Shown one piece after another: positions 44,593-44,979 of a DNA stretch of 64,000 nt. The DNA is taken from positions 1 to 64,000 of the forward strand of contig NZ_CYSP01000014.1 of NCBI RefSeq assembly GCF_001298735.1, given 5' to 3'. The stretch's first letter is position 1, and each line of letters opens with the position of its first letter. The stretch is from Propionispora sp. 2/2-37 (GTDB lineage Bacteria; Bacillota; Negativicutes; Propionisporales; Propionisporaceae). The position numbers and the translations under genes are program-made. The notes under the pieces are model-generated. The model was not told the origin of the DNA, made no database searches, and saw only the letters and a program-made list of their open reading frames with translations.

Positions 44593-44624
44593 CTAAGTAA
44601 GTTAAAATTGGGTGCAGAGATTAA

Positions 44625-44860
44625 GCAAAGTAGCTTATAAACTTAACGTTTATAAGCTACTTTGTGCTTTTGCAAAAAGATTTTTATAAGATCAACAGAT
44701 GTATTATACAGCATACAGCAAGCAAAGAGGCTTGTGGGACTATAAGTTTCACAAGCCTCTTTGCTTTTCTGGATAAAGTGAAGGGGGTGAGGTCAAATAC
44801 GAGAGCAGGGAGCAGAACAAAAGGAAAACCTTCATAAGTATTAGCGGTACTTATGAAGGC
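44625..44860 (+). promoter_or_regulatory. nifH leader with three strong stem-loops (candidate attenuator)
   Basis: Hairpin 1: AAAGTAGCTTATAAAC (44627-44642) / GTTTATAAGCTACTTT (44648-44663), then GTGCTTTT. Hairpin 2: GCAAAGAGGCTTGTG (44722-44736) / CACAAGCCTCTTTGC (44750-44764), then TTTT. Hairpin 3: CCTTCATAAGTA (44829-44840) / TACTTATGAAGG (44848-44859), no T run. Hairpins 1 and 2 share the frame AGCAAAG-GCTT-T with paired substitutions in both arms. With a start near 44599, the leader is about 380 nt. Terminator-like structures ahead of nifH point to read-through control. Confidence 0.7.
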
Positions 44861-44979
44861 CAGGAACAACTAGATTACCAGGTGTGTGGTTTATTTAGCA
44901 TTCCCAATTTTAATTATATCGCAAGGTAGTTTTGTTTTCAAGTATTGAAAAAACGATTGAATATTGGAGGTAAAGATAT

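Follow-up and report, generated by a model that had tools for sequence, protein, structure and literature searches.

Hexaloop terminators and a predicted divergent small RNA gene in the nifH leader of Propionispora sp. 2/2-37

ANTAR proteins recognize their RNA targets by a six-base loop (hexaloop) in which the first base is A and the fourth is G (A1 and G4; PMC3369931). In its published form the motif comprises two hexaloop hairpins, P1 and P2, joined by a short linker that measures 5–12 nt in eut (PMC3369931). The structure of EutV with RNA identified a single hexaloop as the minimal ANTAR binding motif (PMC8934654); EutV binds single-hexaloop RNAs, but antitermination needs both hairpins and the short linker (PMC8934654, PMC3369931). 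Ramesh et al. (2012, PMC3369931) already listed putative ANTAR RNAs before nitrogenase genes in Pelobacter carbinolicus, and because of this earlier prediction ANTAR control of nitrogenase genes is not new in principle. In Firmicutes, how nitrogen fixation is switched where NifA and sigma-54 do not control nifH is poorly known.

We analyzed the region upstream of nifH in a 64,000-nt stretch of the Propionispora sp. 2/2-37 genome (hereafter, the window); the features of the leader are collected in Table 1. An earlier, sequence-only reading had placed a promoter at 44564–44592 and had proposed that antitermination would give nitrogen control without NifA/sigma-54. A sigma70-type promoter was found at that position, with a predicted transcription start at ~44599, and no sigma-54 −24/−12 element with two or fewer mismatches was present between 41652 and 47513, matches elsewhere in the window being at chance level. 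The conserved motif AATATTGCGAATTTT upstream of the promoter is near-palindromic, and among the Negativicutes nifH promoters that match best, most keep it at the same 25-nt offset from the −35 box. It is probably a transcription-factor operator of the nif promoter, that is, a putative nif regulator site. A direct repeat, ATTATCCCATTGTCAAGGGTTA (22 nt, 82%; 44491–44512 and 44555–44576), overlaps the −35 box of the same promoter. No plasmid homologues of the nif leader were found. Elsewhere, the window contains a T-box leader (16052–16290, 139 bits).

Table 1. Features of the nifH leader and of two further hexaloop leaders. Positions refer to the window unless another sequence is named; hexaloops are in brackets.
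Feature	Position	Strand	Remarks
Conserved motif AATATTGCGAATTTT	44539..44553	+	25-nt offset to −35 box in most best-matching Negativicutes nifH leaders
Predicted nif promoter, TTGTCA-17-TATAGT	44564..44592	+	10/12; TG before −10; equivalents in relatives
Antiterminator-type mini-hairpin 1, AAGC[AAAGTA]GCTT	44623..44636	+	Hexaloop with A1 and G4; kept in relatives
Terminator-like hairpin T1	44624..44671	+	18 bp in RNAfold; cannot coexist with mini-hairpin 1
Antiterminator-type mini-hairpin 2, AAGC[AAAGAG]GCTT	44720..44733	+	Hexaloop with A1 and G4
Predicted intrinsic terminator T2	44720..44768	+	Stem of 22 bp with TTTT tail; cannot coexist with mini-hairpin 2
Shine-Dalgarno-like GAAGGGGGTGAGG	44780..44792	+	Conserved; no ATG/GTG/TTG 5–10 nt downstream
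Small RNA gene (predicted), ~90 nt	44813..44907	−	Reads away from nifH, antisense to nifH leader; P1 stem, inner hairpin, terminator
Predicted small RNA terminator (third stem)	44827..44861	−	Followed by TTCCTTTTGT on minus strand
Predicted small RNA promoter, TTGAAA (44941–44936), 17 nt, TATAAT (44918–44913)	44913..44941	−	11/12
nifH	44980..45798	+	Start at 44980; heads nifH-nifI1-nifI2-nifDKEN-nifB; TIGR01287 (458 bits), TIGR01282 (nifD), ORFs
Tandem hexaloop-terminator leader, G002	L164 3924–4021 (G002:C22 ~5414–5524)		Before nifV-like gene
ABC-operon hexaloop hairpins, window genome	L165 4422, 4574 (G000:C13:112418, 112570)		The first, at least, with clear terminator

An inverted-repeat search recovered all three hairpins that had been reported from the sequence alone. 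The first two, H1 (44626–44664, 17 bp, 100%) and H2 (44720–44766, 22 bp, 91%), correspond to T1 and T2, and the 386-nt leader as a whole folded far better than its shuffled versions (z = −8.4). H1 and H2 have in common the skeleton AAGCAAAGnnGCTT, which is a 4-bp mini-hairpin closed by a hexaloop (AAAGTA and AAAGAG, respectively) with the ANTAR-type A1 and G4, and the long terminator stem uses the 3' half of this mini-hairpin as its 5' foot. T runs had been described after both hairpins. This was correct for H2, which passed a plus-strand terminator scan, but not for H1, which did not pass and whose tail, TGCTTTTGC, is weaker. We take H1 and H2 to be a pair of terminators in series, the first of which has a poor U-tract. 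The differences between them had been taken as compensatory change within one leader, an argument that fails because the arms of any two hairpins are self-complementary, so that such ‘covariation’ is uninformative; support for structure comes from the relatives, in which the hairpins are conserved. The conserved part is the hexaloop mini-hairpin AAGC[AAAGnn]GCTT; the shared skeleton does not repeat the entire hairpin.

We compared ~105 nifH leaders, drawn from relatives within the class and from named genomes. The hexaloop played no part in the detection of leader terminators, and control terminators came from the same loci. An RNNGNN hexaloop occurred at the 5' foot of 49 of the 75 nifH-leader terminators versus 24 of 317 controls (p = 2e-25; this and the other p-values are only nominal because the compared leader and small-RNA sequences are phylogenetically related, which inflates the counts). 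When foot hexaloops of any kind were considered, G4 was present in 50/52 from nifH leaders versus 30/84 from controls. At position 1, A was sometimes replaced by G in the relatives. The stems of 81 hexaloop-terminators contained 62 GU versus 7 AC wobbles when read on the plus strand (p = 4e-12), and this excess assigns the structure to the plus-strand RNA. Leaders held one to three such modules each and were found in Negativicutes, Peptococcaceae-type Clostridia, Clostridium and Eubacteriaceae.

Both modules of the window have the P2 characters of an ANTAR target RNA (short stem, A1/G4 hexaloop, overlap with a terminator), and neither has a P1 hexaloop within 45 nt upstream. Upstream P1 hexaloops were detected for 13 of 39 modules outside the Negativicutes (~0.8 expected; for example GATAC[ATTGAT]GTATC) and for 3 of 42 within the class (1.15 expected by shuffling). 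The absence of P1 from the window and from most Negativicutes modules therefore defines a P2-only variant of the ANTAR target. Judged by these features the leader is not quite canonical, in that it resembles an ANTAR target in working while missing one defining feature. We considered whether these terminators might be controlled by some other RNA-binding antiterminator, or might be constitutive insulators with no antitermination at all. Such an arrangement would suit the Negativicutes modules that have no P1 hexaloop, and ANTAR binding is something we infer; however, the strongly enriched R1/G4 signature fits the determinants of ANTAR targets (PMC3369931), full dual hexaloops occur in other Clostridial nifH leaders, and within the window genome itself a hexaloop-terminator precedes eutH, beside an eut operon that has its own REC-ANTAR/kinase pair. 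We judged non-ANTAR control to be unlikely and ANTAR-type antitermination at T1 and T2 to be likely. The proposal of serial attenuators relieved by ANTAR-type antitermination is thus well supported on comparative grounds, by the R1/G4 hexaloop at the terminator foot and by genes for REC-ANTAR proteins and PdtaS-type kinases.

ANTAR genes were present in 54 of 60 relatives, but their co-occurrence alone is uninformative because they are common in Negativicutes. The window genome (G000) has two. One encodes a REC-ANTAR protein paired with a PdtaS-type GAF/PAS/HisKA_2 kinase and adjoins groESL (C10:41073); the other lies inside the eut operon (C2:308217). The C10 protein is our guess for the regulator that would act on nif, as the best candidate left by the absence of others. 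Hexaloop leaders also occurred at other genes. The congener G002 has a second tandem T1/T2 leader, with a nif-like promoter, before a nifV-like homocitrate synthase gene, and in the window genome two hexaloop hairpins with the loop AAAGAT lie upstream of a polar amino-acid ABC transporter operon. Together with their downstream genes, these leaders look like parts of a candidate nitrogen regulon.

Two further observations concern leader organization. The anf leaders (L211 ~1640 and ~1860; L212 ~890) contain the hexaloop hairpins GATAC[AAGGGG]GTATC, [AAAGGG] and [GAAGGG]. Complementary arms come after these hairpins, in some cases with no U-tract. In two congeners (L002 and L003), a small gene for a Mop-like (molybdopterin-binding) protein lies between T2 and the small RNA gene, roughly 420 to 215 nt upstream of nifH, so the attenuators there would control mop and nifH jointly.

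The third inverted repeat (44829–44859, 12 bp, 100%) had been described as another stem-loop of the nifH leader, without a T run. The description is right for the plus strand, where no T run follows, but wrong in kind: on the minus strand the stem is followed by TTCCTTTTGT, and a promoter (11/12) lies just beyond the stem. The stem is very probably the intrinsic terminator of a conserved minus-strand gene for a small RNA. Our covariance model R2 matched 44907–44820 of that strand with 67 bits (E = 9e-10; E = 6e-11 in another search). A conserved plus-strand element, TTATA-N16-NTTTCAA, is TTGAAA-17-TATAAT on the minus strand, and this promoter looks strong and unregulated. The predicted gene thus carries a promoter and a terminator of its own, opposite in strand to the nif transcript that it overlaps, as expected of a cis-antisense RNA. 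A search of 44400–45000 against Rfam 15 gave nothing at the curated gathering threshold, only chance hairpin matches far below it.

Strand assignment was based on several measures. Promoters of at least 10/12 were found on the minus strand in 61 of 73 copies and on the plus strand in one; for at least 11/12 the numbers were 48 versus 0. The 12 bases after the stem included 7.1 T on the minus side versus 2.8 on the plus side, and 63 copies had their T-run on the minus side versus 7 on the plus side (p = 4e-12). The body of the RNA folded better as the minus strand (−13.2 kcal/mol) than as its complement (−9.4 kcal/mol, p = 3e-5), and terminator-stem wobbles on the minus strand were GU in 21 cases versus AC in 3. 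The promoter, the minus-strand U-run, the covarying fold and the G.U/A.C asymmetry therefore place a small RNA on the minus strand.

These results bear on two other explanations of the third hairpin. It could, with its downstream motif, be a plus-strand element of the nifH 5' UTR, such as a riboswitch, a protein-binding site or an mRNA stabilizer; its position within the nif leader, the conserved Shine-Dalgarno-like sequence upstream and the covariation of the stem when read on the plus strand are all compatible with that, but it is the minus strand that folds better, carries the T-run and has G.U wobbles rather than A.C, and the conserved 3' part is the minus-strand −10 and −35 boxes at 17-nt spacing. 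The loop, moreover, occurs in both orientations between species (UUUGCGG/CCGCAAA, UGGCAG/CUGCCA), as a terminator loop tolerates. On the strand tests we rejected a plus-strand riboswitch or UTR element, an explanation that we regard as improbable. The same inverted repeat might instead be a palindromic DNA operator near an internal promoter, since the dyad is near-perfect and its spacer occurs in both orientations. In the alignment of relatives the third-stem region is the best-conserved part of the leader. Against an operator, its arms vary freely yet stay complementary, with both sides changed in 8 of 12 pairs; the strand-specific G.U bias, the U-run and the promoter orientation likewise disfavor this explanation, which we consider very improbable.

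The small RNA forms a family. A first covariance model gave matches in 54 of 300 genomes of the class; they lay at nifH and, as tandem copies, ahead of a NifH paralogue. A second model found 83 copies in 51 of 300 Negativicutes genomes. None was found outside the class among 299 genomes of the phylum, nor at 47 other nifH loci, mostly from Clostridia. Of the 83 copies, 79 lay in divergent orientation upstream of a NifH gene (median distance 89 nt), and one more preceded an anf operon with anfD as its first gene. All 51 genomes with the small RNA encoded NifH (hypergeometric p = 4e-16). In the window genome, the paralogue with tandem copies is anfH of an anfHDGK operon (TIGR01861, TIGR02929, TIGR02931), and TIGR01861 identified anf at a second locus; nearby nifH homologues are called anf on the basis of the loci checked, namely the window genome and this further one. 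Copies were often in tandem at anf. Two good copies were located away from nitrogenase genes (G082:C1:734199–734289, L221; G142:C78:643–729, L250). An MFS transporter gene is divergent from one of them, and a formate-THF-ligase-like ORF adjoins the other. These two copies argue against cis-antisense action as the sole role of the family.

The family alignment contained 49 minus-strand sequences. The fold spans ~90 nt and consists of a 5' P1 stem (GGGUAnGUC, which pairs with a segment immediately preceding the terminator), an internal loop that is rich in A and includes AAAUAAA, an inner hairpin and the terminator. This P1 stem was present in 50 of 51 minimum-energy folds versus 35% of shuffles (mean z −1.96). 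In the minus-strand alignment, double changes affected 9 of the 12 terminator pairs; they affected 8 of the 9 P1 pairs in a model-fitted alignment, which is biased towards structure, and alignment-based RNAalifold recovered the terminator helix only. No report of the family was found in the open literature searched, and it appears to be previously undescribed, preceding both the Mo- and the Fe-only nitrogenase operons in the class.

The Shine-Dalgarno-like element has its own pattern of conservation. In nearly every copy read by eye, tandem and anf copies included, AAGGAGGTGG(TT) lay ~25–60 nt before the small-RNA terminator in plus-strand order, and it was also seen at the anf loci L211, L212, L213 and L220. 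It was rarely followed, at the usual distance, by a standard start codon, the triplet often being ATA or ATC. The element is a possible candidate for a ribosome-binding mRNA stabilizer. A leader peptide was considered and rejected: CAGGGTTTATTYGAYATACCCATT would encode xQGLFDIPI in many species, with the Shine-Dalgarno-like AAGGAGGTG before it, but indels between species break the frame, and in the sequences read by hand there were intervening stops and no start codon after AAGGAGGTG.

A circuit can be proposed from these elements. Transcription from the nif promoter would meet the serial terminators T1 and T2, whose 5' foot can alternatively fold into the 4-bp hairpin AAGC[AAAGnn]GCTT with its A1/G4 hexaloop. 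When fixed nitrogen is short, a phosphorylated REC-ANTAR protein, for which the best candidate is that encoded at G000:C10:41073 with its PdtaS-type GAF/PAS kinase, would bind the hexaloops; the terminators would be blocked and polymerase would reach nifHDKENB. On the opposite strand, a small RNA would be made from the strong sigma-A-type promoter, end at the third hairpin, and either pair with nif leader RNA that escapes T1 and T2, destabilizing it, or act in trans on other nitrogen targets. Nitrogenase would then stay locked off until strong nif transcription outcompetes the small RNA.

Several observations count against the proposal: the poor U-tract of H1, the lack of P1 in Negativicutes set beside the dual hairpins that EutV requires, and a small RNA promoter that looks unregulated. 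We hold its parts with different confidence. That ANTAR attenuators are combined with a divergent small RNA is, on the sequence evidence, probable. Antisense silencing of the nif leader is a tentative suggestion, and the conserved fold and the extra copies suggest that the small RNA also has targets in trans. It might even act in trans only, or bind a protein, and overlap the nif leader simply as a consequence of its place in the genome. Selection on the internal fold (P1 and inner hairpin) beyond simple complementarity, the tandem copies before anf, and the copies at the MFS gene and beside the formate-THF-ligase-like ORF would all accord with this; a purely trans-acting RNA, however, would have no need of the divergent position before a NifH gene that nearly all copies occupy, and we find an exclusively trans role doubtful. 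The fullest form of our proposal is a double RNA lock in diazotrophic Negativicutes that works without sigma-54 and NifA, in which serial single-hexaloop ANTAR attenuators are joined by a divergent small RNA, common to nif and anf, that silences the leader and maybe coordinates both nitrogenases in trans. We offer it as conceivable, at somewhat less than even confidence. The leader presents a concrete, testable two-part RNA circuit, which raises two questions: the identity of the ANTAR protein that reads the hexaloops, and the role of the nitrogenase-linked small RNA family. Because the small RNA is conserved before nif and anf operons, cross-control between alternative nitrogenases is also directly testable.

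Other small RNAs tied to nitrogenase expression include sRNA154 of Methanosarcina, an sRNA of Pseudomonas stutzeri and ArrF of Azotobacter (PMC9170634). These belong to other phyla, and the text of that review shows no divergent leader-antisense family common to nif and anf. The nifV motif, a weak riboswitch candidate (PMC11109978), is likewise a computationally found structured RNA beside a nif gene, but it is restricted to Geobacter, lies on the plus strand and contains the nifV Shine-Dalgarno sequence; it is unrelated in taxon and position. The closest likeness is to the ANTAR dual-hairpin RNAs (eut/EutV, nasF/NasR, amiE/AmiR), which the window leader matches in its short stem, in the A1/G4 hexaloop overlapping the terminator 5' arm, in having ANTAR genes in the same genome and in the nitrogen-metabolism genes downstream. 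In those systems P1 lies a short linker upstream of P2 (5–12 nt in eut), whereas the window has two single-hexaloop terminator modules in series and no P1. The P2-only modules fit the binding of single hexaloops by EutV (PMC8934654), yet EutV needs both hexaloops and a short linker for antitermination, and the next hexaloop in the window is ~97 nt away. The leader would thus extend the ANTAR target class by a P2-only variant, and it bears on whether one hexaloop or two are required.
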